Assembly: GCA_947561395.2 (NCBI GenBank)
Contig: OX387185.1
Location: forward strand, 47,440,602 to 47,504,601
Reading direction: 5' to 3'
Length of the DNA: 64,000 nucleotides
DNA from: Buxus sempervirens
Lineage: Eukaryota > Streptophyta > Magnoliopsida > Buxales > Buxaceae
In this document: positions 15,381 through 57,426 of the stretch, piece by piece
How the letters are laid out: each line of letters opens with the position of its first letter
Position numbering within the stretch: position 1 is the stretch's first letter
Position numbers and translations under genes: made by a program
The notes under the pieces: model-generated
The model's input: only the letters and a program-made list of their open reading frames with translations
Databases searched by the model: none
What the model was told of the DNA's origin: nothing

Positions 15381-15454
15381 CCCAATTTTTGCGTTGAGCC
15401 CGTGTGTTGACGGAGGGACGATCACCCCGGTGATTTTTTCCCATGTCTCACAAC

Positions 15455-20355: not shown

Positions 20356-21861
20356 GGTGCAGAAAATGAGGCAGCCGACCTCATAAAAATAATCAAGAAA
20401 AGTGAATTCAATCTTGTGGATCAGCTGAACAAGGTCCCGGCCCAGATTTCAATACTGGGCCTTTTGCTGAATTCCGAAAAGCATAGGGATGCATTGTTAA
20501 GGGTGCTACAGAGTGCACACGTATCCCAGACAATTGATCCAGACCAGCTTGGTAAAATGGTTGGTCAAATCTTGTCACATAATGTGATAAGTTTCTCAGA
20601 GGCTGAGATCAGCCCAGGTGGGTGTTATCATGTGGACCCTTTGCACATCACTGTGCTTTGTAAGGGCTGCATGGTTGCACGGGTTTTAATCGACAACGGG
20701 TCAGCGTTAAACGTTTGCCCGTTAATCACTTTTACCAAGCTGGGTCTGGACCAGTCAAGGATCAAGCAAAATGGGCGGATAGTAAGGGCTTTTGATAGCT
20801 CCAAGACCCACTCCCTAGGGGAGATTGAACTGCCGGTCACAATTGGGCCGAATATCTTTAACATCACATTTGAGGTGATGGATATACCCGCAGCCTTCAA
20901 TCTGCTCCTAGGAAGGCCGTGGATACATTCGGCTAGGGCAATACCATCCACGCTCCACCAGAGGGTGAAATACATAAGAGGGCAAAGGGTGATAACAGTC
21001 CTAGCTGAAAACTTGGTGCCGCCCATTGTGTCACCTGATGTACCCTTGATCAATGTGGACCTAACTGTCGACAAGATTGCATTCCACTCATTTCAATTTG
21101 AGGCGGTAAATTACATACCTGGGGGGTGTGAGAAAAAGAAAGAAAAGGGAACCACTGCAGAAAGGATGGTCAAGAAAGTGATGGAGAAATACCACTTTCA
21201 CCCAGGGAAAGGCCTGGGGATCAATCTGCAGGGTATGGTGGAGCCAATCACGGCTAAGAAACTGATCCCTAAGGTAGGGTTGGGCTTCAAGCCCAGAGGC
21301 TGGAGAAGAATGAAGCACGAAGAAGGGGAGAGCAGAAGCAAAGGAAAACTCCCACATCTGAGGGTGAACTTCCCAAAACCCGCTTATATAATCCAAATTT
21401 CTCCTCCTATGGACCAATCAAAACCTCCCTACTACAATGTCAACCCATTTCAAAAGCCTCCTGTTTCGGCCCTCCAACCCTATAACCCATCTCCAATACT
21501 GGAAGCAGTGGATGGGCCTGGACCACAGCCCGAGCAGCAGGTGGACTTTTCTGAAGATGTTGGAGCCTTCTTCGCCATGACTGAAGGCGAAAAGACAGGG
21601 GCAGACATAGAACTGCCATTTATTGACTGGGCCGCAGTAAAGGTTCCAGACAAGGTCATTTCTGGATTGGGCCCCGCAGCAGAAAAGGGCAGTACCCACC
21701 CGGTGATGATGGCATCGGATGCTGGGCTTGAAGAGCAGGCTTTCCCTATTTCCCCTGCTCCCCAAAATTTTGTACTGAACAATTGGGAGGAAACTCCCCT
21801 TACCTTTGAAGCAGCGTTAGTTCGGCAAACTGACGCGGCTTCCAAAAAAAAACTCCAATAG
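20356..21861 (+). CDS. Aspartic protease region with G-patch-like segment
   Basis: Same frame as gag, straight after the in-frame UAG, open to TAG at 21859-21861. No ATG sits near the start, so expression would need readthrough or a lost sense codon. The protease core has LIDNGSALNVCPL, with the active Asp codon at 20692-20694, and LLGRPWIHSA further on. DNG instead of DTG or DSG is usual for Tat-type proteases. At about 21,180-21,300 a G-patch-like stretch (HPGKGLGINLQG .. VGLGFKP) is present, a feature of several Tat-group elements. The last part is a low-complexity linker. The frame ends just past a run of nine A residues, and RT continues in the -1 frame. Confidence 0.85.
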   Translation, partial: GAENEAADLIKIIKKSEFNLVDQLNKVPAQISILGLLLNSEKHRDALLRVLQSAHVSQTIDPDQLGKMVGQILSHNVISFSEAEISPGGCYHVDPLHITVLCKGCMVARVLIDNGSALNVCPLITFTKLGLDQSRIKQNGRIVRAFDSSKTHSLGEIELPVTIGPNIFNITFEVMDIPAAFNLLLGRPWIHSARAIPSTLHQRVKYIRGQRVITVLAENLVPPIVSPDVPLINVDLTVDKIAFHSFQFEAVNYIPGGCEKKKEKGTTAERMVKKVMEKYHFHPGKGLGINLQGMVEPITAKKLIPKVGLGFKPRGWRRMKHEEGESRSKGKLPHLRVNFPKPAYIIQISPPMDQSKPPYYNVNPFQKPPVSALQPYNPSPILEAVDGPGPQPEQQVDFSEDVGAFFAMTEGEKTGADIELPFIDWAAVKVPDKVISGLGPAAEKGSTHPVMMASDAGLEEQAFPISPAPQNFVLNNWEETPLTFEAALVRQTDAASKKKLQ

Positions 21862-23954
21862 TGGAATGCCATTTCCCTGAAGGTTCTAATGGGCCTTCGT
21901 CTTCAGGGGAATTATGTTTAGAAGGCCCACAAAAAACCCAAAAAGATTTTTCTATTTTTTCTAGAAAATTTAATTTTTTCAAAAAGGTCCAAACCGCTTA
22001 TGAACCATATAATCAGACCGAATTGGACCAGGTTGAATATGACTTCGACCTTGAGCTCGACTTTGATCTCATGGGGGTCGAAGAAGAGACCAAGGTCGAA
22101 GAAGAAGACGTTCCAAAAGAAATTGAATACCAATTAGAACGTCATGAAAAGGGGGTCCAACCTAATATTGAGGAGACCATAGCCATAAATCTTGGAACCA
22201 AGGAGGACCCAAAAATGGTGAAAATCGGGTCATGCTTGTCTGATGTGCAGAAAAATGAAATGTCACTGTTCTTGGCAGATTACAAGGATGTGTTTGCTTG
22301 GTCATATCGGGACATGCCGGGGTTGGACACTGACATGGTGGTGCACAAGTTGCCAATTTTGCCAGGGGTTAAGCCGATTAAGCAGAAGCTGAGAAGATTG
22401 AAGCCTGAATGGACCTTGAAGGTCAAGGACGAAGTGGTCAAACAGTTTCAGGCGGGATTTTTGGCAGTCTCTACGTACCCAGAGTGGCTTGCGAACATAG
22501 TGCCGGTACCAAAGAAGGACGGGAAAGTCCGGATGTGCGTGGACTATAGAGACTTGAACAGGGCAAGCCCAAAGGACGATTTTCCGCTTCCACACATCGA
22601 CATTCTGGTCGATAATACTGCGGTACATAGCCTGTTTTCCTTCATGGATGGTTTCTCAGGATATAATCAGATCAAGATGGCTAAGGAGGATCAAGAGAAA
22701 ACAGCATTTATCACACCTTGGGGCACATTCCACTATACAGTCATGCCATTCGGACTCAAAAACGCTGGGGCAACATACCAGCGGGCCATGACTGCACTAT
22801 TTCATGACATGATCCATAAGGAGATGGAGGTCTACGTGGACGATATGATTGCCAAATCATGCAAAGAGGAGGACCACTTGATCAATCTAAAGAAAGTGTT
22901 TGATCGGCTCAGGAAGTACAGTTTACGGCTTAACCCGGCTAAGTGCGTCTTTGGGGCTACATCAGGAAAGTTGCTTGGGTTTATAGTGAGCCGAAGAGGA
23001 ATTGAAATTGACCCGGCTAAAGCCAAGGCCATAATTGAAATGCCAGCACCCAGAACCGAGAAGGAGGTCAGGGGCTTTCTGGGAAGGATTCAATACATAA
23101 GCCGGTTCATAGCACAGCTCACTGCTATCTGTGAACCGATTTTCAAACTTTTGAGGAAAGATAACCCGACGGTTTGGAATGAGGACTGCCAGCAGGCATT
23201 TGACACAATAAAGAGGTATTTGCTAAACCCACCTGTGCTAGTGCCACCAACTCCAGGAAGACCACTGATCCTGTACTTGTCAGTGTTGGAAACGTCGATG
23301 GGATGTGTCTTGGGGCAGCATGATGAGACTGGTAGAAAAGAAAGGGCAATTTACTATCTGAGTAAAAAATTCACAGAATATGAAGCCAAATACTCACCAT
23401 TGGAGAAGACTTGTTGTGCTCTAGTGTGGGCCACTCAGAGGCTAAGGCATTATTTCCTTAGTCACTCCACACTATTGATATCCCGGATGGACCCGCTGAA
23501 ATATTTATTTGAGAAACCGGCACTGACTGGCAGAACGGCTAAGTGGCAACTACTATTGTCCGAGTTTGACCTCACATACATCACCCAGAAGGCGATCAAG
23601 GGTCAAGCCATAGCTGATCACCTGGCTGCACATCCTCTGCCAGAATATCAACCCTTGAAGACCAATTTTCCCGATGAGGCTATTCTGTACACTGAAGAGG
23701 ACAGTGAGAGTTCTTGGCAGATGTTCTTCGATGGGGCCGCCAACATGAATGGGAACGGAATAGGGGCAGTCTTGGTTAAACCAGATGGTTCACACATCCC
23801 AATTGCAGTAAAGCTGAGATTCCAGTGCACCAATAACATAGCAGAATATGAAGCATGCATAATTGGATTGCAAGCAGCCATGGATCATGGAGTAGAGGAA
23901 CTTGACGTATATGGGGATTCGAGTCTTATCATCTTCCAAACAACTGGTGAGTAG
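21862..23954 (+). CDS. Reverse transcriptase and RNase H
   Basis: This frame is -1 relative to the protease and overlaps it at the A9 run near 21,845. An acidic linker comes first, then RT: VPVPKKDGKVRMCVDYRDLN, FMDGFSGYNQI, MPFGLKNAGATYQR and the catalytic YVDD at 22833-22844. The connection and first RNase H region follow (YYLSKKF, ATQRLRHYF). A second, canonical RNase H has FDGAANMNG, NIAEYEACI and YGDSSL, and such a dual RNase H is characteristic of the Tat group. The frame stops at TAG 23952-23954 inside this domain, where relatives carry Trp. The same frame reopens at once into integrase, so this looks like a nonsense mutation. Confidence 0.92.
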
Positions 23955-25310
23955 AAAACCAAGGATCACAAATTGATCCCCTATCACCAGTACTTGGAAG
24001 AAATAAGCACAAATTTCACTCGAATTTCCTTCAACTATATGCCAAGGGCTAAGAATCAGTTTGCGGATGCTTTAGCAACCTTGGCTTCAATGGTCAGCAT
24101 ATCAGAAGGAGTAGACATCAGACCACTGGAAATTGAGGTTAGAGATGAACCGGCTTACTGTCTCGTTCTAGAGGGAGCACCAGAAGAAGAAGCACCATGG
24201 TTTCAAGATATCAAGAATTTCTTGAATAATCGGAGTCTGCCAGAAAATGCCACTGCTACTGAGAAGAGGACAATACAGAGATTGGCTGGTCAGTTTCTGC
24301 TAAGTGGTGGACATGTGTACAAGAGATCACATAACGACATTCTGCTCAGATGTGTTGCCAAGGCTGAATCAGAAAGGCTGATTGAGACTGTACATGGAGG
24401 AGTTTGTGGGCCCCATATGAGTGGGCACATGCTGGCTAAGAAGATCCTGAGGCTGGGATACTACTGGACAACCATGGAGCATGATTGCTGTATACATGTC
24501 AGGAGGTGCCACCAATGTCAGATATATGCAGATAATAAGCATGCACCCCCAGGTGAGCTGCACAACATGACATCGCCCTGGCCCTTCTCTATGTGGGGCA
24601 TAGATGTCATTGGCATGATCTCCCCTAAGGCATCGAACGGGCACAGATTCATCTTGGTGGCGATTGATTACTTCACTAAGTGGGTGGAAGCAGCATCATA
24701 TGCAAACATCACTAGCAACCATGTTATTAAATTTTTGAAGCACAACATTATTTGTCGCTATGGACTGCCAAGTGCCATAGTATCAGACAACGCTTCAAAT
24801 ATTAAGAACAAGGACATGAAGAAAATGTGTGAGCAGTTTCAGATCACCCACCACAAGTCAGCTCCGTACAGGCCAAAGATGAATGGGGCAGTAGAAGCAG
24901 CAAACAAAAACATAAAGAAAATCATTCAGAAGATGGTAGTGAGCTACAAGGATTGGCATGAAATGCTGCCACTTGCTCTGCATGCATACAGAACCTCGAT
25001 CCGGACCTCAACTGGAGCAACCCCGTATTCCCTAGTCTATGGAATGGAAGCAGTCTTGCCAGTGGAAGTAGAGATCCCATCACTCCGAGTGCTCATGGAA
25101 GCAGAACTAGAAGAAGCCGAATGGATCCAGTCGAGACATGATCAACTTAACCTAATAGAAGAAAAGCGGTTGAAAGCACTTTGCCACGGACAGTTGTACC
25201 AGAAGAGAATGGCCCGGGCCTACAATAAGAAGGTGAGGCCCAGAACTTTCCAAGAAGGAAACTTAGTGCTAAAGAAAATTCTACCATTTTTGGAAGATCC
25301 TCGTGGTAAG
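23955..25310 (+). pseudogene. Integrase, main part, interrupted by a solo LTR
   Basis: Same frame as RT, after the UAG at 23952. The zinc-binding HHCC region is present (VHGGVCGPHMSGH .. CHQC). The catalytic core has Asp at 24603 (GIDVIG), Asp at 24786 (VSDNAS) and Glu at 24894 (GAVEAANKN), so the DDE triad is complete. The C-terminal region runs to DPRG and stops at the GTAAG target site at 25306-25310. There a 2,035-bp solo LTR adds a few foreign residues and a stop at about 25,337. The rest of the domain lies at 27351-27485. The enzyme would insert element cDNA into host DNA. As it stands, it lacks its tail. Confidence 0.9.
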
Positions 25311-27345
25311 TGTCAGCACCCCATTTTTGCACTATAAAATTGCCCAAGAAGCATATCTTAAACTGACATATATGTGGGCACGTAAATCGAGGTTTTTATA
25401 GTGGACCCATCTTTTTGAAATAACAAGCCCATAACAAAGAGAATTCTTAACCGATTCCGATGCACCGAACCGTGCTCAAATCGGATGTCAGACGGCTAAG
25501 TTATGAATAAAATAAATAAAGGGTAGTTTGAGGATTTTTACAAAACCGAAATTGGATGCCACATGGCAGCCACGTGTACACCATGGTGGCTGCCATGTAA
25601 CCAATGACAAATTAAAATTTTGTGGGGTTGTTTTAGTAAATAATTAAGTTTCCTAATGGGGTTTCTTATGCAAATAAATAACAAAGTTAATAAAAGATTA
25701 AGATTAAAAAAATAATAATAATAAAAATAAACAAAGAGAAATGAGTTGGACGAATTGGTCCAACTCATATTCTCTTGAGATATTGAAACTAAACCTAAAA
25801 AATATAAGCCTAATAAAAATGGGGGACAATATAGACTTTGACCAAACCTAAATGAATGAAGGGTTTAAGAGAGGAATAGGAGTTAGGAGTTAGGAGTTAG
25901 GAGTTTAAGTGTTTAAGAGGAGAAGTTAAGAAAATGAGAGGTTTAAGAGAGGAAGAGGAGGAGTTAGGAGTTTAGGTGTTTAAGAGAGGAGTTAGGAGTT
26001 TAGGTGTTTAAGAAAGGAGTTAGGAGCTTAGGTGTTTAAAAGGAGAAGTTAAGAAGTTGAATGGGTGAGAATCCTCTATAAAAGGGCTTGAAGTTGAGAG
26101 CAAAAGGGCAAGTAGGAAGAAGTGGAGAAAAGAAGAGGGACGTCTACTAGCAAGGAGGGAGAAAGGAAAACTGCTGTTCACGACACACCAAGGCTCCAAG
26201 ACTTGATTTGAAGTGTCAATCCATAACAGGTGAGTCATTTGTTTAATACATTGTATGAGACCTCTCTTTCATTACAATTTTTGAGATAAGATTACATGAT
26301 TGATGAGAGACATGTATATATGTTTGATGGCTTTGGGTAATTTTATCATGTAAAAAAAAAAAAAAAGACAAAGATGTAAAGTTCTGAATTTTTTTCCTGC
26401 ATTAGGTTTGCACCTGTTTTCCAGATAAACTAATTTTTTTCACCTTGTTCTAGTTTGATTCAATTCTGGAGTCCTTCATGAGATTTGTGGTATTTTTATT
26501 TTAGTTTAATCTAAAAATACGCTCGAGACCTTACACTATGAGTAGGTATTTTATTTTTAATTTTCTTTGGTTCAGATTTTCAATTGGAAATGTATAACAG
26601 TAACTTTTGGAGTTTCATATCTCTTAAATGAAAATGAATTTTTGAAAACTGCTATAGGTTATTTTAGTGTTTAAAGTCATGATTCTAAGGAATCAAATTT
26701 TGCACAATTTGGTTAAGAATTGAGGGAGATATGAATCTTTGAATGTGGATAGCGCAGTAATTCAGGTTGTTTCATTTTGTTTGTTTCCTTTGTAAATTAG
26801 TAATTAGGCCATGGTTAAAAGTAGTTCAGGTGGTCTCATTTTCTTACTTTGTAAATTAGTAATTAGTTAATCTTGCATGATAAAAACAATAGAAAACAAA
26901 ACAAAACAAAAAATAATAAATAATAAGAAAGGGAAAAAGCAAATGAAACAAGCATTGAAGCGATGATTCTTTCTTGTGGTTGAAAATTGTTTTAGCATGG
27001 TTTTGTTTTGTTCATATGGTTTTACTTTCAATGTAATTTTGTGGAGGCCATGTACATATAGATTAATATTTGTTGTACGCTTAAAATGAAAAAAAAAATT
27101 AGAAAAGAAAAAAATAAAAATAATAAATAAGAGAGCTCATTAAATATCCAACTAATTTAAGGGAATCCATTTCGATGGGACAACCCAGGGTGTTCAAGGA
27201 CTTCCCTAGGTTGTAATCTGGTCACTTAACCGGAATCACTGGTGCAGACCAAAAATCAACAAGGTGTCTACCTGCACCATTTCAGGTAGTGGCGACTCTA
27301 TAACAGATTGTAACGCGCTTTTTCCGCGCGCCCGAGGTGCGCACA
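25311..27345 (+). mobile_element. Solo LTR inserted in the integrase region
   Basis: Begins TGTCAGCACCCC and ends GGTGCGCACA (imperfect inverted ends). It is flanked by GTAAG at 25306-25310 and 27346-27350. Removing the insert restores the integrase frame exactly. A TATA box lies at 26077-26084 (CTCTATAAAAGG). A short repeat based on GAGTTAGGAGTTTAGGTGTTTAAGA fills 25,860-26,045. TGGCGACTCT at 27290 matches the tRNA-Arg primer site, so the parent was probably also Tat-like. No internal region remains, which fits LTR-LTR recombination after insertion. Confidence 0.9.
26077..26084 (+). promoter_or_regulatory. TATA box of the inserted solo LTR
   Basis: CTCTATAAAAGGGC context, about 770 bp into the LTR. 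It gives the LTR the same orientation as the host element. Confidence 0.65.
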
Positions 27346-29885: not shown

Positions 29886-32156
29886 TGTAGACACCCCAAA
29901 TTGCACAAACAATCATCAAAAATCATTATCTCCTGGAAGGCCAGCACAAAATTTGAAGAAAATACACTTTTACCTGTATCCGGATTGAGTATCCGGATAC
30001 AAGTACCCTTTCCCGTATCCGGATAGTCATACCGGATACGTGTGAGCCTTAGCATATCCGGTACCATGTACCGGATACCTTAAGGCCCTTTGTTATCCGG
30101 TCTGACATACCGGATACCTTAAGTTTGCTCAAAATTAGGGTTTTCCGAGAGCTTTTCACTTTTACCATCATGTCCCTCATTAAATGAGGGGAAATCGCGG
30201 AAATAACCTTAGGGTTAAGGTTGGAGGGGTTCTAGACATTAAGTTGTGTCTACCAATGACCTTAGCCTTTGCCTATAAATAGGAGCCTCCTCCTTGAGCA
30301 AATGGCACACAACTCTTGTTTTGAATTCTCGCAAAGAAGAACTCCAAGAGAAGAAGAAAACCGCTGTGGAATCGCCTCCAGCACTCAGGTAAGCCTCAAC
30401 TTTTCTTTTTATTTTCTGTCTTTACATTCCTAGATCTAGATCTCTTCTTCTACCTTTCTGTAGTGTAAAGCCTTGTTTGTATGTGTGGAAATCCTTCCCC
30501 GGCTCAAAGTATCTCAAGACTCCCCTAGCCGTAAAACGTGAAGGCGGATCTAGGAGAAACGAGACTGGGGATTGACCCTAGTGCTAGAACCTATGTAGCA
30601 TAAGGCCTTTTTGATTGATTGTAAACCGTTCCATATTCAAAGTACCCTTGATTATCTTAAAGAGAACAGAGGGAAACGATAATGGAACGGAACCCTAGGC
30701 TATGCTAGAACCTATTTTATTGAATCTATATGCATGTGTATAGATCTTGCTAGGTTTTTTTCACTTTTGCACACATATCACTATTTTGGCGGGATAGGCT
30801 CATATTTGGGGTTTATTGCATTTATTGTGATAAATCTCAAATAAATGGCATCAATCAATTCTGGAATGCCTTTCGGATGATTTTGAAGCATTTGTGTTCA
30901 TATTGCACGAATTTCATTTTTATCAATTTTCGGATTTGGTTTTTACTCAAAAATGGCTTAGCTTGACAGCACCTGTACCCTTACTTCGGACGCCCGTAAC
31001 TTCATCATCCGGATGAATTTTGGGGTGATTCCAGAACCATGGGAAAGGTGAGGCTGTCTAGTTTATGTCCACCAAATTTCATGAATTTCTATTTAGCCGA
31101 TTTTTGACACCTCTCTGTCGAAGTTAAGTGGACAGTTCAGGTTCAAATACAGAACTTGTCACTTCGACGGACCGCCATGTGTTCGTTTTAAGTCCGATTC
31201 GAGGGGTTTTTATTTCTGAGTACTCCTTTTTGAGTCTATTTTCAAATCCAGTTGGTTTCATAATTTTTGGATTCCATTTGAATTATTGGTAGCCGATTTA
31301 CTCAGAACTGCTCATTTGCATTTTTCTGGGTAAATCTGTGATCTTCGGGGCCTGTTCGGGAGACCACCCAAGGCACATCCGAAGGGATTTTTGTATGAGG
31401 CTAGTTTCTGTTGAAAGATGGCCATACAGACTTCAATCACACCAAATTTCGTGGATTTCTATGTAGTGGATTTTTCTAGACAATTTTCCAAAGTTGCCCA
31501 CTTACTACTTTTAAAAATCCCCAACAGCAACTTCAAAGGAGCATAACTCCTGGATTTTTCATCGGAATGAAGTGAAATTTTGCATGAGACTCTTATTTAC
31601 CCTAATCTTTCAAATGGATTTGATTTGGTTCAATTCAGAATTGGATTTGAATGGTTTTAAGGCAAATGGCATACTTTTTACAAAAATTCCCGGATTTGCC
31701 TCAACTTGGTTTTGGCCACTTGTGCTTTGATTTCCATCTTTTAAGATATTCCAGAAATGATATTGACATAAGAGAGGATCTAAAATCCATTTAGATCTTC
31801 ATGTGAAAATATCACACATTAATCCTTTTTCAAGGTTTTCTATGATTTTAGCAAGCTTTCTTACTTTATTTTTGCATGAACATACACTTGGCAACCACTT
31901 CGTGTGGATGAATGGGGGTGCCTAACACCTTCCCCCGTTCATAATCTAATCCCCTTACCCATCTCTGGATTTTATTTTCAAGTAGGATTATTTTTATCCT
32001 AGAATTTGTCTTTTGGCTATTTTTGCCTACTTTTGTATCTTTGGTGTCCATTCTCACCCCAAAATCATGAATGGTGGCGACTCTCCCAATTTTTGCGTTG
32101 AGCCCGTGTGTTGACGGAGGGACGATCACCCCGGTGATTTTTTCCCATGTCTCACA
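29886..32156 (+). repeat. 3' LTR
   Basis: Same ends as the 5' LTR, 2,271 bp, TATA box at 30274-30281, followed by GATGG at 32157-32161. Differences from the 5' LTR are scattered and few up to about 31,640. They become dense between 31,650 and 31,760 and moderate after that. Confidence 0.95.
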
Positions 32157-32161
32157 GATGG

Positions 32162-34975: not shown

Positions 34976-34980
34976 AATGT

Positions 34981-35480
34981 CCACTTGATTTATATTCCCT
35001 ACGCTTTCCACAAATCCATCTCAACATCCTTACTTGGATATAAATATGTTTACACAAGAAGTAGGTTATTAGAATCTTAATTTATGTTTTTTCATCAACT
35101 CAAGACTAAGGACTTGACCGGTCCACATCAATAACAATATTGACTAGCCAGATTGGCCTAGTCCAAATGATTGGTCTGTTCGATCCTCATGAAAGAAGGA
35201 CCAAAATATTAAAGAGAAAAATCAGAAAATTTGAGATGTAAATTACGTGCTTGTTAAGATTAATAAAAACAAGCTTTATATATTTAGAGAAAATGCTCTT
35301 GCTTAATATTGACTAGACAGTTTGGCCCGGTCCAAATGATTGGACCGTGTGTTGGGTTCTAATGAATAGACCAAAATATTAAAATAAGCATCAGAAAATT
35401 TCAGAAGATGTAAATTACAATGCTGTGAATATTAATAAAAACAATTTTTTTATGCATAAAGAAAATGTTCTTGATTTGCT
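34981..35480. repeat. Dispersed repeat copy A, right part
   Basis: Continues copy A after the solo LTR. Similar to 50885-51345 and 53475-53985, with shared stretches such as CATCCTTACTTGGATATAAAT and GGACCAAAATATTAAAG. Two internal sub-repeats begin GACTAGCCAG/GACTAGACAG. No coding region seen here or in the next 270 bp. Confidence 0.8.
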
Positions 35481-35752
35481 TTTTAACTCTCTCAAGTGCT
35501 TGTCTTTTTATGCAAATTACCTGCTAGACCTTTTGTTTGGATTATCTTGATGAGCATGGTGCACGTGCAATACTGCATGTATGTTGAGGATAAGGAATTA
35601 TTAAAACGTACTCTTTTTGAAAATGAAAAAGCAAATAGACAAATTAACTGTATTAAGACAAGAATGACATTAGAGGATTATTTTAGGAAAAATAAATATA
35701 TTAGTTTGGCACACTTCCCAAGAGGGTGCATAGCGTTATATACAATATAATA

Positions 35753-35947
35753 TAGCTATTGTAAGTATCTTTGAAAAAATTAATTTATGAATGAGTATGG
35801 CTTTGGCTTGGTCCTTTTCTTTTTCTCCTTTTTAAATTTGGGTGAGATGGTCTTCTGATTAGGAGATTAGCACGACAAAGATCGATGGCTCTCGCGGTGA
35901 TTTGTTGGCATGGAGCAGTTGGATTTTGTGGGGGACCTTAAAAACTC
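35753..35947. repeat. Duplicated non-coding block, copy 2, left of the transposon
   Basis: Matches 7398-7595 of copy 1. Its last bases before the TTA duplication align with the uninterrupted copy 1 sequence around 7590. Confidence 0.85.
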
Positions 35948-36523
35948 TTAGGGTCCGTTTGGATCGCAGGAATTAGAAGGTAAGAATTGGAATTGGTAGC
36001 TGAGAATTTCAATTCCTGTGTTTGGTTGACCAATCCCCACGAGAATTAGAAGTCACGTGTGAATTCTTTGGTCTCAATTCCCATGATCCATAAGAATCAT
36101 AATTCAGATGGTGGGGGCGTTTTTTATAATTCCTGTGTATTAAGATTCATGGAGGAATTGAAATCGGGTTTCGATTTCGACTCTCTGTCGACCTAAAATT
36201 TACAGACCAAAACCTTCATGGCAAAACCTTTGAGAGCACGTCTTCGTCGTTGTTCTGAAGCCTTCGTTTAAGTCTCTTCTCCTTCGTCTTACTTCTAAAA
36301 CTGCAACATTTCTTCTTCTCTCGCCCTTGTTTTCTTCTTCTTCTTCTTCACAAGAGAAACTGGGAAAGAAAGAAAGGAACCAGAGCGAAGCAACAGGTTG
36401 ATCCCAGAGATTAAGATGATTGATTCTCCAAGACGCTTGTATCGTCCACAAGTTCAGCAAGAAAATGAAGTAGAAGAAGAAGAAAGGGAAGAGCAAAACG
36501 GGGCACCTCCTCAACAATGACTT

Positions 36524-37044
36524 TGCGATTTCTATGGAGAATCACGAACTCTTCTGTACTTCCGAGCGGATTCTACGAAGCTCTGTTTCTCATGTGACCG
36601 TCAAGCCCATCTAGCCAACCCACTATTCATCAAGCATACCCGATTTGCTGCTCTGGGACGCTTGTGACTCGAACTTAGCTTCAATATTTTGTTCCACGCA
36701 GAGTCTAGTTTTGTGCCAGAACTATGATTGGGACACTCATGGTCTATCGTTAGGTTCCTTGCACAACTGAAGGCCTATTGAGGGGTTTTCTGGGTGTCCT
36801 TTAGTGATTGAATTGTCGAACATTCCTGAATTTGATAACTTGGGGCACAAGTCTCCATTTCTGGCAGAGAAGCATGGCGATGATTGCTTAGTGAGTTCTG
36901 AGCCGTACGGATCGGTATGGTTGGTCGATGGATTCTTGAATCCCTTTGTGGGATACTCCGCCTATAGTTAGCCTTGATGATCTGATTGCTTCCATTGATT
37001 CTAACCATAATTTCCTAGCTACGGGGATTCCTCCTTTGCCTAAG
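36524..37044 (+). pseudogene. Captured CONSTANS-LIKE (B-box) exon fragment, decayed
   Basis: Read in pieces, the plus strand encodes a degenerate tandem B-box: CDFYGESRTLLYFRAD .. LCFSCDRQAHLAN, then CDSNLASIFCSTQSLVLCQNYDWD..HGLSL, then RPIEGFSGCP..ELSNIPEFDNLG, and near the end VSLDDL..IPPLPK. These are hallmarks of exon 1 of the COL9/10/14/15 group of zinc-finger transcription regulators. At least four zinc-ligand Cys are replaced (Tyr, Phe, Trp, Tyr), there are at least two frameshifts, and a stop sits before RPIEG. The exon still ends in CCTAAG followed by GTATTAAG, a splice donor, so the capture was from genomic DNA and not from mRNA. It cannot make a functional protein. Confidence 0.8.
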
Positions 37045-37173
37045 GTATTAAGTTTCGGAATTCGATCCTATGCTGGTCTCTAAGTTCTTCGATTCTCGTT
37101 TTTAGGTTTGTGGTTGGCTTTGATTTTTCTTTCTTTATTTCTCTCAATTTTGAATTCATCATAGTTTGTATCA

Positions 37174-37500
37174 TTGGTATTGATTCAAGGCCTGGATACT
37201 CAATCTACTGGAATTGCTGCTGCTACTGCTGGTGCAAAAATAAGGTACAAAGACACACCATGCAATGGTTTTATAGCAGAATGCAATGGAGACGAAGAGC
37301 TGGCAATGGAGTCTGTAACAAGTGGAAAGATTCTTCAAGCAACTGCAGATCCTATATTCATCCCTCCAGGGGCTCCGAACCGTGAAAAACGAATCTGTCC
37401 TCCACCAGGTCAACCCTACGGTGCTAAAGATTGCGTTGGTCTTCCATCAAACGTTTGAGGCCGAGGCTGCCACAAAAATGATAATTGTGTGACTTCCCTA
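37174..37500 (+). pseudogene. Captured RALF-like peptide gene fragment
   Basis: The open stretch contains CNGFIAECNGDEELAMES, close to the conserved pro-region start of plant RALF precursors (CNG.IAEC..E.E..MDSE). Further on come ICPPPGQPYGAKDC and, after an in-frame TGA at 37456-37458, GRGCHKNDNC, which matches the final C-x5-C disulfide loop of RALF peptides. There is no ATG or signal peptide in frame, so the 5' end was not captured or has been lost. RALFs are secreted Cys-rich signals perceived by CrRLK1L receptor kinases. The fragment lies 130 bp after the COL exon inside the same transposon. The RALF call rests on motif spacing and is moderate. Confidence 0.6.
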
Positions 37501-38301
37501 CTCAATAAAAATGATAATTGTGTATGCAGTTATATGGTCTGTTATATTATTAATTAAGTAGCTCGGATTATGCATTAATTTAGTTCGGTTCCGTCTGTTT
37601 AAGACCATTAATTCGGAGTTAATTTCTATGCGTATTAATGCATTACATGCATACCCACTTGGGGCAGAATTCCTTTGGTGCTCTATTATGTTAATCCTTG
37701 CAAATTTTGTTTGATTTGTACCTTTTTAAGGCTAAAATCTTGTATTATCTCAATGGAATTGTCTCGATTCGTCATAAATTGTTTAAATATCAATAAACTC
37801 CATTTTGAGAGGCACTAAATCTTTTTGATGAAATGAGACCTTCAACTTGCAGGTTGATAATGATTTTCAAATTAAACAAGTTCTTACTCTTTTGAATAGA
37901 GTTGAATATATATACTCTTTCATCTTCTTATAGGAAGAATCTATACTGTTATATAAAGCTGACCCCTGTTTTCTGCTTGAATTTTTTATGGGGGAAGCAT
38001 ACATATACTAGTGATGCAAAAGGAATCAAATGGTGTCTTGCGTGAGTGGGGTGGTTGAGAAAATGCAGTTGGGTTACATAGGTTTAATTTGCTCAAAGTG
38101 TTTAAATATTTCAATTCTTAAAGATTTCATAGCGTCCAAACGGTGGAATTGGAATTCACGTGTGAATTTCAAGTAAATTCCATAAACTTAGTCAAACACC
38201 AAAATTTTAATATTTATGTATTCAAATTCATTAGATTTCAAATTCATGTGTATTTGAATTCTCATGAATGTTTAAATTCATGCGATCCAAACGGACCCTT
38301 A

Positions 38302-38739
38302 GCAAAACTTACACATGCTCGGGAGAATCCCTTGTTTCTTCCTCTAGCAATTTTTTTCTTTTACCCACGCGCTATGCATGGGGAATCTTACGGCTTTTGG
38401 TTTTTTTTTTTTTTTCTCTTTTTTCTTTTGAAATAACAAGCACAGCCACAAGGAGGTGGCCCCATCTGATCCAACACACTCAAAAAAAAAGACAAAAAGA
38501 AGAAAATGAGTCCTTTTTTACAGTGTTGAAATCTTCTATTACGTTGAACCGTAGAGTTCAACTATAACCTGTTGTTGCTTGTCTAGGTGACAAGCAACGT
38601 CCTCAAACAGTTAAAAGGAAAAAACTTTTTCATATTTTAATGCAGAAAAACTTTTTCTCCTAAGCAAGGTCTTATCAAGAGATAGGGCACGAGAGACGTC
38701 TTTGTTGGATGGGGGAGGCCTTTTTCATTTTTTTTGGGT
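38302..38739. repeat. Duplicated non-coding block, copy 2, right of the transposon
   Basis: Continues the match to copy 1 (7598-7830): GAGAATCCCTTGTTTCTT, CCCACGCGCTATGCA and AGCCACAAGGAGGTGG are shared. Similarity decays after about 38,560. The LINE fragment follows. Confidence 0.75.
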
Positions 38740-39960
38740 GGGAAAATGTCAAAAAGATTATATTAACCAGAATTTACAATTCTAACCCAAGTACCTCCAA
38801 TGGCATCTCCATAGAGGTTAAGACACAAAAAACTTGGGGGTTTAACTAACTGGATATAAGGGAAACCATCAATAGCAAAGTTTGCTAACTCGTCTGCCAC
38901 CTTATTGGCTTCTCTAAACACATGCTTCACTAAGAAAAACTCAAAACAAAGACTCAAGAGTTTGGCTTCTTCCAAGATGTTGTCCACGTTCCAAATACCA
39001 TGATGGTTTTGGTCCTTCATAAGAGCTGCAATTGTCGATGAGTGTGTTTCCATTTCCACCCTAGAGATCCCCAACCCTTTAGCAATTCTTATGCCTTCCA
39101 GAATCCCAAATGCCTCTACTACAAGAGCTGATGTGTTACCCAGAAAAATGGCAGCAACAACAATGAACTCTCCTTGACTTCCTCTTAAGATTACTCCACA
39201 TGATGCTCTTCCCGTACTACCCCTAGATGCTCCATCGCATTTACTTTGACATTTGATTCACTTGGCCTGGTCCACCTTATTAGCATCTGCTCCTTGCTAG
39301 TCTTTATTCCAACATGCTTGGAAAAAACTCTTGAGTCTTCCTGCAAGGCAAAGAAAGTAGCAATACATGAGTTTAAATTTTCATTTGTTGCTTCAAAGAA
39401 TACCTTATTTCTCACCTTCCACACGGCCCAACAGCAATTTGCCCATGCAGCAACCCTTTCCATATTGTCAACATTTTCATTTAGTCTATCACTCCACCAA
39501 TCTTTGATGTTGTCTCTGCTCTCCAATTCGTCTAGCTTTCCCCCACATGCTGCAAACCAAACAGACCTCATGAAATGGCATTCAGTGAACAGATGGAGAG
39601 CTGAGTCTGGTTTTTCCTTGCAAAGGACACACTCTTGGAGTTGTGATCCCAATCTCTGATGGAGTAGCTCACTAGTAGTTAGACCATTGTGGGAAGTCTT
39701 CCATATGAAAAACTTAATTTTCTGTGGGCATTCCAACTTCCACAACCTATACCAAAAACTGTTAGTGTCCAAAGATTCAATGTTAGCAAGCAAATTATAC
39801 GCAGATTTTACCGAGTATAGCCCCTGGTTCCTTCCTTCCATATCAGCTCATCGTTGTCTCTATTGTGGCTTGTATGAATGGTCTAAATGACATTAACAAC
39901 TTCCTCTGGCCATATTCTCTTAATTAGTTGGATGTTCAAGCTTTAGATTCAAGATACATC
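38740..39960 (-). mobile_element. L1-type LINE fragment (3' half of ORF2), decayed
   Basis: On the minus strand the order is: a region reading ELIWK..YSVKSAYNLL; a zinc-binding RT-associated domain with CVLCKEKPDSALHLFTEC (39,600-39,850); then an RNase H domain with a CDGASRG-type start near 39,230 and HVFREANKVADELANFA near 38,900. These are the C-terminal domains of plant L1 ORF2 proteins. At least two single-base shifts and one stop break the frame. RT and endonuclease are missing, so the copy is 5'-truncated. A T-rich stretch at 38,722-38,740 may be the remains of the poly-A tail. Confidence 0.85.
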
Positions 39961-42126
39961 AAATCAGCAACTCTTTAAACTCCAGAAAACTGACACGCGC
40001 AAAGTCCCAGACGTTTCAACATCCACATGCATAACACATGATGTCCTTTAACAACCTTGACCTGGGCAGACCTTTTGGTTGGTCAGATCCAATAACGTTT
40101 CCATATATCTTTTAATTTTGCTTTTAGAAGGAATTGATTATGTTCTTTCTTCTTATTTTTTTTTAACTTAGAGGTTCCCTTTTGGAGGGACAACCCCATA
40201 CGTACTCACTGATTGAGTTTGAAAAATCTAATTGACTCCCAGCCAATAAACATGCCAGTTTTGGACGAATCTTCTTCAATCTTGACCCGTTAGGACGACA
40301 GTTCTAACTAGGCCCAAAGCAACATTACTTGCATGCCCAAAGTAACACTGACACAAACTTCAGCCCAAACCTGATCCAAAATCAATTGATTGATTTCATG
40401 CTGGGTTCAATATGGCCCAAGATAAATTCCTTCTTTTATAGAAAAAAAACGTTTTCCTATAAAATAACCCATTGTTTAAAATGGCATATTATTTAACAAA
40501 TCTAGTTAGATGAGATATTTGTTTAAGACATCATAGATTTTCAAGAATAAAAAAAAAATCATATTCATTGCTTAAAGGTTGCTCTATTATTTATTTGAAA
40601 TTTATTAAAATGAACTAAAACATGATAATATTGTACCAGCACTATAATCTTGTTATAAAGTTAACTTATGGTAATATGATTTAAGTAAGTTTTGAGCTGG
40701 ACTAGGCTAATTAGGGCTGTAAAAATTTCTATCTTATCTCAATTTCAGGTTTAAAAATGAACATTGACCATTCTCAAACACAAATAAGTTATATGGTTGA
40801 GTGAGCAGCTGTGAGCTTAGACTAAGTCGTCCAAAAGCTATAGCTCTAACTATATTAAATTAACCCATTTTATATGAACATATTTCTGTGTATGTTTCAA
40901 AATATAATAAATATTGCTTCTGAATAATCATATATGTACATATTGTATATTTATAAAAATTTACAGTATATGGAAAAAAAGAAGACTAACTGGATTAGGT
41001 GATTACACATGTTAAAGGGTGTTATATTCAAGTTTACATCCCAACCCGTTTAATAAAGTTGAGCATGAGTAGGTGAATTCCCAATAGAAAACTAAGTCCG
41101 ATCCCCAAAATTCAACCCGTTATTGGCAATCCAAGATGGACAATTCCAGAACCAGCCCATGATTTTAAGAGACCAACCCAAACATGTTTAAATCCAGTTG
41201 TAGTCAGGCGGACCTATTGTCGGATTAGATTCAGGGGTGGCAACAGTTCGGTTGCGTAAAAAACCAAAACTGAACCGACAAGTTTACAATCGAAACCGTA
41301 ACTGTTACAGTTTACTAATTTTAAAACCAAAACCATTTAACTTTCATATTCTTAATATTGTAACTGAATCTAACCGAACCATTTCACCTTTTTTGAAAGT
41401 TCAAATAGATTAAATTCACATTATTTCCATCGTGTCTACATAGATATGTGTTAATGAAACACTGTATCAAAAGAATTTCTATAGAAATACAACGAAAAAT
41501 AAAAATTCAAGTGAAATTTTTTGTTTCAAAAACTATTCAAGACCATTCAACTCTAGAAAGGATACGTCATCCCTAGCGGACTAATCAGTTAAGGGGTTGT
41601 ACAATGGTCGGGTTAGAAGCCAAGCTACCACCCTTCACAAGGTTTACCATTCTCATCCTGATCCCCGCTCTACAACCGTAGAAATAAACAAACATTAAGC
41701 TTCTTGGTTACTTGGCATCACATGAGTGATCCATTAGTCACGATAAACACCAGTAGAGAAAATCCAATTAATGATTTCCGCTTGCCCACGTGTATGGTCA
41801 ATGTGAGATTAAAATCTTCTTTGAACACTTTTTGAGTCTAGAAATATCCCATGCTCCACCAAATTCATGCACTAACAATCGAACATTAGTCTAGATCCTT
41901 CAAGAATCAAGATAGCAAGGGAAATTGGAAAAAAGACAAAGCAACGCGAAGCCTTAATGGAAACATCCCCACTTCCATCTATTTAATTAAGCTCCTCTTA
42001 ACATCCCCTCCGGAACAGTTACCTCTGCAATAAAATTGTCCGTCAAAAAGGAAAAAGAACAAAACAAGTCCCATAAACAGAGAATCTCACTCTCTATCTC
42101 CCAAGCTTTAATTTCATCTAGGAAAA
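39961..42126. other. Intergenic region upstream of the FTSH6-type gene
   Basis: No gene seen. 40,160-40,300 has weak similarity to 8,440-8,600 (TTTGGAGGGACAACCCCATA..). 40,440-41,600 is AT-rich with short AACCGAAC-type repeats. The last 250 bp should contain the promoter of the gene at 42127, but I see no clear TATA box. Confidence 0.5.
41899..41906. promoter_or_regulatory. Possible heat-shock element core
   Basis: TTCAAGAA fits the TTCnnGAA core, about 220 bp before the ATG. Two near matches, GTCTAGAA and CTCTAGAA, lie further upstream. FTSH6 is heat-responsive in Arabidopsis, so this is plausible, but two-unit cores are common by chance. Confidence 0.3.
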
Positions 42127-44504
<2,378 letters not shown>

Positions 44505-49864: not shown

Positions 49865-50236
49865 TCTTTTTGGGAAGCAGTTTGCTGAAAATTGGATATA
49901 TCGTTAATAACTGCTTCATTAAAATGAAAAGAACTGATTTTAAGCCTGTTAATATTTTGAAATGGCTAGAAAAGTTGGTTAAGAAAGAGCTTGAGTCATG
50001 TATCTTGACAAAGTAATATGATGCCGTACTTAAAAATATGATATGTGATATATCTAATGATAACAGGCAAATAACGAACATTTATAATTATAACTCAACA
50101 AGATTTGATAATTCTTTTGAAATTTGTTATTATTTTTGTAGTTCTCTTCATTTAGCACATTATAATTTATCCTAATAATTTTTTAATTAATTTTAGCTTC
50201 TATTAAAAGAATTTGCTAAGTATAATGTCCTCCGGA
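49865..50236. repeat. Dispersed repeat copy B, left part outside the tandem duplication
   Basis: Similar to 12640-12945 of copy A (GAAAAGAACTGATTTTAA, TATCTTGACAAAGTAATATGAT). Non-coding. This left part is not repeated in copy C. Confidence 0.8.
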
Positions 50237-52829
50237 CTGCTTCTTTCTACTGATTTAATATAATCCTTCCTATTACCGATCAAAAAAATAAAAATTATCC
50301 TAATAATTGGAATTTGCTTAATAAAAACAAGTTAGGATTCATTAAAGTGTTTTGTTAAAAGAAGGAGATGGCAACACCGGAGCGGATGTATTTTTTTCAT
50401 AAAGAGAATATTATTAAAACTATCTGTCACTGATTACACATCTATTTAGGTTCAACCTACAAAGTCATCCTCAAACAGCCAACAATTTCAGTTGGAAAAT
50501 TACATAACCAGTAGCAGGAAAATTTATATAATGCAAAATTAAGTTGATTGTTATCTACCGTGTTTGCTTCTCAAAAAATTTTTGAGTACAATAACAACAG
50601 CAGTAGCAACAGCAAAATGTTTTATCTAAATTGGTTGGTGCTGTTAATGTGAATCATGTTCCTACATCCTAATTTGTCAAAAACCATAAGTATCAAGGTC
50701 TGTTCTGATTGATTCCATCCAAGTTTTTCTTATTCTTTTTCTCACCCTCTTAGATCCTTCAATAGTTACCCACTCATACCTTCTGACTATTGCATCCCTA
50801 GGTCTTCACTTTATATGATATAACGTGTTAACATACTTTTCTTTATCTTATCTTCTATTTGGGCAACACAGATACTTTCAGTTATGCCCACTTGATTTAT
50901 ATTTCCTATCCCACAAATCCATCTCAACATCCTTACTTGGATATAAATATGTTTACACGACAAGTAGGACTTGACCGGTCCACACCAATAACAAGATTGA
51001 CTAGGCAGATTGGCCTGCTCCAATTGATTGGTTTGTTCGATCCTAATAAAGAAGGACCAAAATATTAAAGAAAAAAATCAGAAAATTTTAGATGTAAATT
51101 ACAAGTTTCTTAAGATTAACAAAAACAAGCTTTATATGTCTAGAGAAAATGTTCTTGCTTAGTTTTACTAGCCAGTTTGGCCTGGTCCAAATGATTGGTA
51201 CCATAAGTTGGATTCTAATGAAAGGACCAAAATATTAAAATAAAAATCAGAAAATTTCAGAAGATGTAAATTACAAGGCTGTTAATACTAATAAAAACAA
51301 GCTTTATATGCATAGGGAAAATGTTTATTTGATTTGATTTTTATCTTTCTTGATACTAATAAAAACAAACTTTATATGCATAGGGAAAATGTCTATTTTA
51401 TTTGATTTTTATCTTGCTTAAGACATTTTATCCTTTATCTTTGCATGTGAGTGATGGAGCACAAATTTGACTCTTATGCTAGTATTCGTTGGTTTTGAGT
51501 TGCTGCAATAAAAGCAAGCAAAATCTTCTTTTGTATATTTTGTTGTATTAATTTCCCTATATATGGTCGAAATTTGGCTACTGCCATGATGGCAGCATGA
51601 AACGTATTGGGAAATCGAGATTTCCCCATCTTTCCTAGATTTTGTGGTATGCCGGAAAATATCCGCAACATGCCGTGAAATCTTGGGAAAATTAAACATT
51701 CAAATCGAACGTTGATGTATTTTTATTTGACATTTAGTCATTTAGGGATGTGATGCATTTCATATATGATTTTACTGTGCTCTTATACTCTTCTGTATAT
51801 GTTGACTTGATCAGTATTCAGTGGATATGATGATGCTAGTGGATTTCCCTCAATTTTCTATATGCAATATCCATGAAATCACTTATACACCACATTTTCG
51901 GTGCCTTTCTTTATATGTTTTGGATGTGTTTTACACCCATATATGCACTATACATGAATTAAACAGAAAAACTGTTTCCCTACACTTGGGAAATTACCCA
52001 GATTCTGCCGGCATGCCAGTGACATGTTGACGAAAATTTTGCCAGAGGCTGCTGCTGGCAAGCCAGAAAAATGAGAAACATAAATCCTTAATTGATATTT
52101 AGGCATTCCGGAATATTATAGGAAATTTTACATTCACAATGAGTTTCTTAGTAGTAATGGGAAAGTTTAGAAAGACTAGAAAGTTCTCTAAATATAGAAA
52201 ATTGATGAATGTGTAGTCCTTTAATGTCAAGATAATAGGAAACTTTAGATTACAAGGAAATTCCTCAAGAAAATGGCAAACTTTTGAATGAATTAGAAAG
52301 TTTACGAACATACCAATTTCTAAATTATTTACAGCTCAATTAACTTAAAGATGATAGGAAATTTTAGATTTTTAACGAGTTTCCTAATAAAAGTAGGAGA
52401 ATTTAGAAAGATGAGAGTTTTAAATAAATAAAAAAAAAACTGTAAAATTACTCTTAGATCCTTGTTTTTAAATTTTTTGAAAAATTGACTGCTTATAATT
52501 TTCGTGATTACCTTAGGCTGCATATTTTAAAATAAACCTAAAGATGTTAAATATTTAGATGAGAAAGACCAAAAGATTTTTATTTAAAGAGACAATTATA
52601 AGGCTTTATTTTTTCAATGCTTTTTAATTTGAAAGTAAGTCTTCAACAGTTTTGATGGTTGTTTAAAATGTGGCAGCCGAAGGTAATTATGAATATCTTA
52701 AGCACCGGATGCCAAATTTAGATCTAAGCCTCCGAAGTTAATTTTTCATAAACAAAATTTGAAAATTTTCAGCCAACTCAATTAGCATTGTGAGAGGTGC
52801 CAACTGTTGTGAGTAAATTGTAATAATTG
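50237..52829. repeat. 2.6-kb tandem duplication, first unit (copy B)
   Basis: Begins with an L1-like tail (ACTGCTTCTTTCTACT .. CCTATTACCGATC plus A-run) and runs to about 52,829, where the same tail starts the second unit. Contains the RTE remnant at 50555-50870 on the minus strand, then sequence shared with copy A, then AT-rich DNA with AGGAAATTTTAGA-type short repeats from 52,110 to 52,420. No gene. Confidence 0.88.
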
Positions 52830-55391
52830 GACTGCTTCTTTCTACTAACTTAATATAATCCTTCCTATTACCGATAAAAAACAATTATCTTAATAATTGG
52901 AATTTACTGAATACAAACAAGTTAGATTTCATTAAAGTGCATTGTTAATAGAAGGAGATGGCAACATAGGAGTGGATGCATTTTTCTTTTATAAAGAGAA
53001 TATTATTAAAACTATCCATCCCTGATTGCACATCTATTTAGGTTCGACCTACAAAGTCATCCTCAAACAACCAACAGTTTCATTTGGAAAATTACATAAC
53101 CAGTACTAAGAAAATTTGTATAATGCAAAATTAGGTGGATTGTCGGCTACCGTGTTTGCTTCTCAAAAAATGTTTGAGTACAATAACAACAACAGCAGCA
53201 ACAACAAAATGTTTTATCTCAATTGGTTAGTGCTGTCAATCTGAATCTTGTTTCTACATCCTAATTTGTCAAAAACCATAAGTATCCAGGTCTGTTCTGA
53301 TTGATTCGATCCAAGTTTTTTTTATTCTTTTTCTCACCCTCTTAGATCCGTCAATAGGTACCCACTCATACCTTCTGGTAACTGCCTCCCTAGGTTTTCA
53401 CTTTATATGATATAACCTCTTCACATACTTTCATTTATCTTATCTTCTATTTGGGCAACACAAATACTTTCGGTTATGTCCACTTGATTTATATTTCCTA
53501 TTCTTTCCACACATCCATCTCAACATCCTTACTTGGATATAAATGTGTTTACACAACAAGTAGGTTATTAGAATCTTAATTTATGTTTTTTCATTGACTC
53601 AAGACTAAGGACTTGGCTGGTGCACACCAATAACAATATTGACTAGCCAGATTCGCCTGGTCGAAATGATTGGTTTGTTCAATGCTAATGAAAGAAGGAC
53701 CAAAATATTAAAGAAAAAAATCAGAAAATTTTAGACGTAAATTACAAGCTTGTTAAGATTTATAAAAACAAGCTTTATATGTATAGAGAAAATGTTCTTG
53801 CTGAGTATTGACTAGCCAGCTTAGCATGGTCCAAATAATTGGCACTGTACATTGGATTCTAATTAAAGGACCAAAATATTAAAATAAAAATCAGAAAATT
53901 TCAGAAGATATAAATTACAATACCGTTAATACTAATAAAAACAAGTTTTATATGAGTAGGGAAAATATTCTTACTTTGCTTTTTAACTCTCTTAAGACAT
54001 CTTATCCTTTATCTTTGCATGTGAGTGGAGCACAAATTTGACTGTTGGAATGCCAGTATTCATTGGTTTTGAGTTGCTGCAACAAGTGCAAGCAAAATCT
54101 TCTTTTGTACATTTTGTTGTATTAATATCATGGTTTACTGTGTCACAGAATTTCCCCGCATATGGTTGAAATTTCGCTACTGCCATGATGGCAGCATGAA
54201 ACATATTGGGAAATCAAGATTTCCCCATATTTCCTAAATTTCGTGGTATGCCAGAAAATATTGGCGACATGCCGCAAAATCTTGGGATAATGTAGATGTA
54301 TTTTTATTTGACATTTAGTCATTTGTGGATGTAATGCATTTCGTATATGATTGCACTGTACTCTTCTACTCTTTTGTAGTGTTGACTTGATCAGCATTTA
54401 GTGCACTGATGATGCTAGTGGATTTCCCTCAATTTTCTATATGCAATATCCCTGAAATAACTTATAAATCACATTTTCTATGCCTTTCTTTATATTTTTT
54501 GGATGTATTTTACACCCATATATGCATTATACATGAATTAAACAAAAAAACGGTTTCCCCACACTTGGGGAAATTATCCCAGATTTTGCCAGCGTGCTTG
54601 CAACATGTTGACGAAATTTTTCTGGAAGCTGCTAGTGGCATGCCGGTGAAATGAGAAACACAAATCCTTGATTAATATTTAGGCGTTCGTCAAGATGATA
54701 GGAAATTTTACATTTACAATGAATTTCTTAGGGATAATGGGAAAGTTTAGAAAGACTAGAAGGTTCTCTAAATATAGAAAATTTATGATTGTGTAGTAGT
54801 CGTTTAATGTCAAGATAATAGGAAACTTTAGATTACAAGGATTTTCCTCAAGAAAATGGCAAAATTTAGAATAAATTAGAGAGTTTATGATCATAAAAAT
54901 TTCCAATTATTTATAGCTCAATTAACTTAAAGATAATAGGAAATTTTAGATTTTTAAGGAGTTTCCTAATAAAAATAGGAGACTTTAGAAAGAGGAGAGT
55001 TTTTAATTAAAAAAACCGTAAAACTCTTAGATCCTTCGTTTTAAATTTTTTTTAGAAATTGATTGCTTGTATGTTTCATGATTACCTTAGGCTGCATCAT
55101 TTTAAAATAAATTTAAAGATGTTAAATTTTTAGATGAGAAAGGCCAAAATATTTTTTTTAAAGAGACAATTCTAAGGCTTAATTTTTTTTATGCTTTTTG
55201 ATTTCAAATTAAACCATCAACAGTTTTGATGGTTGTTTAAAATGTGGCAGCCATAGGTGATTATGGATATCTTAAGCACCTAATGCCAAATTTAGATCGA
55301 AGCATCCGAAGGTAATTTTACATGAGCAAAATTTGAAAATTTACAGACAACTCAATTAACATGGTGAGTGGGGCCAGCTGTTGTCAGTAAA
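52830..55391. repeat. 2.6-kb tandem duplication, second unit (copy C)
   Basis: Matches copy B along its whole length at an offset near 2,585 bp, with frequent substitutions and small indels. The RTE remnant is at 53145-53460. The junction with the first unit falls within GTAATAATTGGACTGC. Because both units have the L1-like tail, the duplication followed that insertion. Confidence 0.88.
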
Positions 55392-57426
55392 TCATGTTGT
55401 TATTTTGAAAGTCTAGTTGCTGCTTTTGAGAGTCCAAGTGCCTTTTAGAAATTTCCAATGATAGTCTTGAGAATTTTCCTTATTATGGCCTCAAATTTTT
55501 TTGATGAATGATTTAATAGCTTCAGTACAAGCATATTAATTTTAAATGTCTCAAATGATTTACTCGTATATTTACCAAAAGAAAAAAAAATGTAATCATC
55601 TTGTATGTACCAGTTATACCAGTTTTGACCAGACTATTATTGGCACATACTATATGACCTAACATGGTTTATACTTATTTTTGTACCACATTCTGAGGCG
55701 CATTCATGTACTGGCCAATAACCAAGGGCATGCATGTTAGCAAACTATATATTCATAAAAAAAAAGGAAGCTTCTGAAAATGCTAACATACTTGATTTGT
55801 TTTATGTGCCTTTCAAAAAATCATCTTATACGTTTTTTCTATTCTGTGTAAAAAAAAATGATCATTATTTACCCTGAAGAGTTTTGAACAATTTGAGGAC
55901 TTTCTCTTTTTCCTAGTAAAGTGGACCTCTCTTTGGGGGGGGGGGGGGGGGGGGGGGGGGATGTGCTGTGGAGTGGGGTGGGGCAGAGGGTAGAGGTGTT
56001 CGGAGTTGTTGGTCAGGGCAAGGTTTACCGTTTCAATGCCGATGGGCACAAAACAAAATTTCGGTGGCACGTCAAAATGCTGGAAAAATCGACAAAGACC
56101 AAAATTGGGAGTTATTTTTATTTTGAGGAAATTTTGTCAAATTTCGTGGGTACGCCGCCTTGTTTTGCCAGTACGCCACGAAAAAATTGCCAAAAAAATT
56201 TGTGTTCCCCCTGTATCGCTCAGCATGCCGTCCCGTTTCCCCGGCATGCCGCGAAAAATCCCTAGAAATTTAAATCGGCGATTTTCCAGCCGTGAAACGT
56301 ATTGCAACTTTTAAAAAAAAACGATTTTTTGGCGGTTAGAGGACTTGGCAAACAATTATTGCTTTCTTAAATATTTTTAAATAGAAAGAATTATACAACT
56401 TGCACTTTACTATTTTGAGGCCCAATTCAACATTTGCCCCAAAGCTGCATTATATCCTTCTAATTGTGGAATCACTCCTTCCTCTCAACGTAACATTCAC
56501 GGCACGGTTTTATGCCTTGGTTTTGGACCTTGTTGAGACTGATAGTATCAATATGTATTAGCCAATTTTGGTACTGGCCAAACCATGAAGGATTGGAGTA
56601 GTTTTATGTATCTGCCAATAGGAATATTTAGGTTTGCCATCAGCCCCTCACTGAAAAATTATGTCTTAGCTGATTTGTGTTGATTTTGGGCAAATCCAAG
56701 GAGTCAAAGTGGGACATCAACCATCTGTGTTGAGCACTCTTTTAAATCTCGATCAGTACCTAGACCTACGAGTTGGTACAACTTGGTGCTGGCCTGTATC
56801 AGTACCATCAAATACCAGTAAATACTGGCCCTTACAGTCTAATATGACCCGGTACTTGTTACAGCTGATACCACGACTGGTACCGAGATTTTAAAACTTG
56901 GTGTGGCATACTGTTATTGTGTGCTTGTATATGTGTTTAGATATATTTCTATTTGAAAAGTTCCTTTTTAGTAAGTCTGGAGGAAAATGTATTCAAAAAT
57001 GCTGCCACAACACAAAATCAAGGCTATGAATTGGAAAGTTGAGCAGATTGTCCATTTCCTGCGGAGAGAAAATATAAGCCTGAAAGGAATGTTATAAGTG
57101 TGATAATTTCAGATGAAGCCAACTCCATGAACATTTATGAAATTCACCAGGGGCTAGAAATTGCCCCTGATCATCTGTAATATGGGAAAATAGTTCCTCA
57201 TAAAACTGGAAACTTCCAATGGAAATACTTGATATTAAGACAATGCAACTGTTTCAGCATTTGGCAAGGAATAATCTGATTCTTTTGCTTCCTTCAAGCT
57301 CACAAGGAAGGCATCTCATTAGCAAAAGAAGAAGATTAGTGTGTGTCTGATGGTTTTCCTTTATGCTCAAGGACACTAATTTCAGAAAATGACATTTTGG
57401 TTGTAACAATTTGATGCTGACAATAG
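55392..57426. other. Intergenic, old repeat debris
   Basis: No gene. 55,600-55,720 and 56,520-56,880 contain short GGTACTGG/CCAGTACC-type words typical of decayed DNA transposons. 56,150-56,270 has several GCATGCCG and TACGCC words, also seen near 51,640. Confidence 0.4.
55935..55960 (+). repeat. Run of 26 G
   Basis: An uninterrupted poly-G tract, flanked by CTCTCTTT and ATGTGCTGTGGAGTGGGGTGGGG. Very long G runs are rare in plant DNA, are hard to sequence, and could form a quadruplex. Confidence 0.9.

Follow-up and report, generated by a model that had tools for sequence, protein, structure and literature searches.

Gene capture by PIF/Harbinger transposons, which the sequence-only reading of this locus mentioned as reported, is indeed in print for several plants. 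The Pifvine-3 PIF elements of grapevine were described in 2008 as carrying transduplicated exons and introns (PMC2528002), and Pack-TYPE members of the Harbinger-PIF group followed in 2022 from rice and maize (PMC8903248). The ends of such elements have been defined in a third paper as TIRs of 14-25 bp with a required G(N)5GTT motif (PMC2213677). Here we analyzed a stretch of DNA of 64 kb, hereafter the window, and found a unit that is very probably a Pack-type (transduplicating) DNA transposon of the PIF/Harbinger superfamily, non-autonomous and residing in a plant genome. It is a non-autonomous TIR element that contains host coding sequence, the host origin being deduced from the gene families involved: a CONSTANS-LIKE (COL) gene and a RALF gene.

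The unit spans 35951-38298 (2348 bp), with perfect 18-bp TIRs and TTA directly outside each end (Table 1). Allowing up to three mismatches, the TIR occurs twice in the 64-kb window, against 0.02 occurrences expected from shuffled sequence. We also scanned the window for end pairs under strict criteria (a TTA/TAA duplication, a GG lead, at least 12 of 14 end bases matching and a spacing of 80-6000 bp), and this unit was the sole pair found. Loosening the match to 10/14 added four other pairs, and accepting any lead at 13/14 added one AT-repeat pair. The end-to-end similarity of the unit covers 24 bases with one mismatch, at which point a strict alignment stops. A long TIR was considered and rejected, as the similarity between the left and right subterminal regions was equaled by 28 of 200 shuffles and is not significant. 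No second copy of the unit and no autonomous partner was found within the window. A search of viral contigs for TTA plus the TIR gave 0 matches, and a plant element would hardly be expected there; RNA families likewise gave 0 matches at the gathering cut-off across 35000-39000.

Table 1. Features of the unit and of the related empty site, in window coordinates
Feature	Position	Strand	Basis or remark
Paralogous related empty site, without the element	7392-7810	+	Alignment to the flanks of the unit; one TTA at 7595-7597
Target-site duplication TTA, left	35948-35950		Inspection; the related empty site has TTA once
Left TIR, 18 bp	35951-35968	+	GGGTCCGTTTGGATCGCA; identical 18/18 to right TIR
Left subterminal AATT-rich, MITE-like region	35951-36180		Inspection; inner boundary approximate
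CONSTANS-LIKE first B-box, decayed	36521-36667	+	phmmer match to PDB CONSTANS
Second (partial) B-box and COL-like region after it, another frame	36615-36971	+	TGA at 36768-36770
End of COL exon-like piece (VSLDDL...PPLPK), third frame	36940-37044	+	COL assignment tentative
Candidate intron (GT, pyrimidine-rich 3' part, AG)	37045-37164	+	Inspection
RALF precursor fragment	37195-37545	+	Pfam-supported at 37294-37488; outer limits by inspection
Degenerate internal copy of right terminus, same orientation	38126-38143	-	Terminus-versus-interior score 13
Right TIR, 18 bp	38281-38298	-	GGGTCCGTTTGGATCGCA; identical 18/18 to left TIR
Target-site duplication TTA, right	38299-38301		Inspection

The mobility of the unit and its exact borders are both best supported by the related empty site at 7.4 kb, which the sequence-only reading had not mentioned. 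The flanks of the unit (35744-35950 on the left and 38302 onward on the right) align to one unbroken stretch of the same window, with 180 of 203 aligned bases identical and 7 gap columns for the left flank; the right flank has 138 identical bases among 162 aligned, and 24 gap columns. The regions 35744-38540 and 7392-7810 are thus diverged paralogous copies of one stretch, of which only the former is interrupted by the element; the surrounding DNA has therefore been duplicated, and the unit is present in one copy only. Because this diverged copy of the surroundings lacks the unit and has a single TTA, the 2348-bp unit is an insertion. The occupied left flank has two extra bases relative to the empty site directly at the junction; copies this diverged may simply differ there by an ordinary indel. 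Insertion after the duplication would be the simple reading of the occupied and empty copies; alternatively, the unit may have been excised precisely from the 7.4-kb copy.

The superfamily assignment is based on the ends and the duplication, that is, on sequence features of the borders, and not on a transposase. The perfect 18-bp TIR, which starts GGGTCCGTTTGG, falls within the described PIF/Harbinger length range and carries G(N)5GTT, and the 3-bp TTA/TAA duplication typical of the superfamily is present as TTA on both sides, with one TTA at the related empty site. Furthermore, the TIR agrees at 15/18 positions with that of the Medicago PIF/Harbinger element MtPH-A6-3 (GGGTCCGTTTGGTTCGAGARTT). 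The sequence-only reading had proposed an element at 35951..38298 with 18-bp TIRs, TTA duplications and PIF/Harbinger-type ends, and both parts of this proposal are upheld: the first by the 18/18 TIRs, the TTA on both sides and the insertion visible at the empty site, and the second by the TIR length, the motif, the duplication and the likeness to MtPH-A6-3. A Pfam scan of 37 of the 38 ORFs of at least 40 aa that overlap the unit found no DDE/DDD transposase and no ORF1. Transposase and ORF1 are expected of autonomous PIF/Harbinger members only. Because no transposase was found among the 37 ORFs scanned, we regard the unit as non-autonomous. Sub-threshold Pfam matches in its other ORFs were taken as chance, the best being RPA43_OB at 38015-38176 (E=0.0025, 18.7 bits against a cut-off of 27.6).

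Several other features of the window were recorded. ORFs with LTR-retrotransposon gag, RT/RNase H and integrase matches in Pfam occupy 17821-25337, and they lie between direct repeats at 13181-15457 and 29886-32161, spaced about 16.7 kb apart, which share 99%, 98% and 91% identity in three blocks among the matches listed (20 of 28 repeat families). A direct duplication of about 2.59 kb involves 49919-55392 and 34977-35482, and its copies also match DNA left of the element and at 12677-13172, among the matches listed. Just right of the element, two ORFs on the minus strand (38763-39847) have RNase H-like (RVT_3) and zf-RVT matches and are probably a decayed LINE. At 42112-44504, exons that match AAA and peptidase M41 apparently belong to an FtsH-type host protease gene; this gene type, together with COL and RALF, points to a plant as the source of the DNA. 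Additionally, a 27-bp tandem repeat array lies at 4304-5116, where a 244-nt reference has 22 copies in overlapping register among the matches listed.

Within the unit, the COL pieces cover about 36521-37044 on the plus strand in three reading frames. The peptide of 36521-36667 matched CONSTANS in the PDB (7vsq) at E=7.2e-11 and COL2 at E=2.3e-9, both whole-chain values in which the hits of one and the same stretch to the two B-boxes are summed; per B-box, the CONSTANS values are 0.0005 and 0.0014. The reversed peptide had no CONSTANS match in the PDB (best E 1.4). Joining the B-box pieces gave 5.8e-10 against PDB CONSTANS, which is no gain over the first piece alone. In Pfam, the joined pieces matched zf-B_box at 18.4 bits, below the cut-off of 24.1, and the E-value of 0.0025 is no better than that of the presumed chance match to RPA43_OB in the same unit; single ORFs of the COL pieces gave no zf-B_box match. 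The sequence on to 37044, across three frames in all and the TGA at 36768, reads like the middle region of COL13-15-type proteins, and the tentative assignment past the first B-box leans on this likeness. No match to a C-terminal CCT domain was found in the 37 of 38 ORFs scanned against Pfam, and peptide words from the COL pieces had no match in the literature. The ORF at 36299-36520, considered as a possible third captured gene, was rejected, having no useful Pfam or PDB match.

The RALF piece lies in one reading frame with an in-frame TGA at 37456-37458, and 37195-37545 shows the layout of a RALF precursor. With the stop read as X, it matched PF05498 (RALF) at E=1.5e-5 and 26.3 bits, above the cut-off of 22, over model positions 1-63 of 65. 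The match is significant only with the stop read over, and the part upstream of the TGA alone has no Pfam match. None of nine control peptides (eight shuffles and one reversal) matched RALF; a different family was hit weakly, below threshold, by one of them. Against the PDB, the piece had no RALF match, with weak matches to thrombospondin and cofilin only. By eye, no full signal peptide is recognizable, and no ATG-led ORF spans the precursor. An exact 17-nt direct repeat occurs in the 3' part of the RALF piece, at 37474 and 37507 (37474-37523; starts 33 bases apart), and produces an in-frame KNDNCV repeat.

The presence of a COL B-box and a RALF-like fragment inside the element, as the sequence-only reading had claimed, is supported by the PDB CONSTANS and PF05498 matches together with their controls. 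Its description of their arrangement holds in part: both fragments are read on the plus strand, but they lie about 150-250 bp apart, according to the start chosen for the RALF piece, and not 130 bp. The captured status of the pieces would follow from host-type genes lying inside an inserted unit. It is possible, although we consider it the less likely course, that COL and RALF were one contiguous stretch, either neighboring genes or a pseudogene array, taken in by a single capture and not by two. Their shared orientation, the short gap and the decay of both pieces would suit such an origin, whereas the two families are unrelated. COL and RALF genes are not known to share a conserved neighborhood.

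Both pieces are broken, and in its present state neither can yield its normal protein; the longest ATG ORF in the unit is 50 aa on the plus strand and 77 aa on the minus strand. Since both are decayed, the unit is most likely passenger DNA without a protein product. On inspection, the candidate intron would put the last COL frame in phase with the RALF frame. We place little weight on this in-phase join, because chance alone would give the right phase in one join out of three, and the COL frame is already interrupted further upstream.

An internal copy resembling the right terminus sits 155 bp inside the right end. Comparing the right terminus with the interior, the score of 13 was reached by none of 500 single-base shuffles (best shuffle 12); when the inner and outer right ends were aligned over the whole stretch, 6 of 500 single-base shuffles reached the observed value. 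The 9-base core of this copy also has a single occurrence a long way from the unit, at 42709, and for this reason we treat the copy as suggestive only. A capture model based on a hybrid of two elements has been described for Pack-CACTA (PMC13317346). The internal copy may suit this model, and repeated subterminal motifs may explain it equally well. A full capture intermediate would require that 38126-38143 be the remnant of a neighboring element's end, that the unit be a hybrid of two nearby elements enclosing host DNA, and that the in-phase candidate intron let COL and RALF splice into one chimeric transcript; we consider this combination very unlikely.

The sequence-only reading had further suggested that antisense or chimeric transcripts could affect the parent genes, a claim that finds no support here, both pieces being broken. 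That the unit is transcribed into chimeric or antisense RNA acting on parent COL or RALF genes is speculation to which we assign a very small chance: the GT-AG candidate at 37045-37164 would join the two frames in phase, but the COL frame is interrupted upstream of it, no plus-strand ATG ORF exceeds 50 aa, and a promoter reading the plus strand would yield sense, not antisense, pieces. Hardly credible is the reading of the unit not as a single transposon but as host DNA between two MITEs that belong to one family and happen to be inverted. The terminus-like copy at 38126-38143 and the MITE-like subterminal regions would fit it. Against it, the TTA duplication encloses the unit in its entirety, and at the paralogous site, with its one TTA, no part of the unit is present; separate MITEs would have left the interior at the empty site, whereas the interior occurs nowhere else in the window.

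We therefore return to a single non-autonomous Pack-type PIF/Harbinger transposon. Under this explanation, the COL and RALF pieces would have been copied earlier from host genes, and at the DNA level, because intron sequence seems to follow the COL piece from 37045 on. The unit went into a TTA, duplicating that trinucleotide, as its ends, the duplication and the empty site show. A PIF transposase encoded elsewhere would recognize the ends and move the unit, as the ends and the duplication suggest.

The unit is very probably one more case of a Pack-type PIF/Harbinger element, an ordinary kind of gene capture that is already known. It provides a well-bounded example from a group other than Mutator, and the 64-kb window also preserves an empty site; a single pair of captured gene pieces alters no general view. 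In the open-licence literature, we found no RALF piece in a TIR element; RALF is listed among transposed Arabidopsis genes, with nothing more on RALF in the part of that source available. No Pack-TYPE Harbinger elements in Rosaceae were found in that literature.

Among the known systems, the MtPH-A6-3 subfamily of Medicago truncatula resembles the unit in its TIR (15 of the first 18 bases) and in having the same duplication (PMC2213677). The likeness is one of ends and duplication, and the main text of that paper does not contain the words 'captured' or 'transduplicat' (PMC2213677). Pifvine-3 differs in that its family includes transposase-bearing copies, whereas none was found in the unit, whose pieces are COL-like and RALF-like. 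Both nevertheless share PIF/Harbinger ends, TTA/TAA duplications, and host exon and intron sequence inside. The Pack-TYPE Harbinger-PIF elements come from other hosts, and the pipeline described for rice and maize drops singletons and so requires similar copies. They are otherwise like the unit: non-autonomous elements with TIRs, matches to host genes and TTA/TAA duplications, the last being found in most of the rice and maize set.
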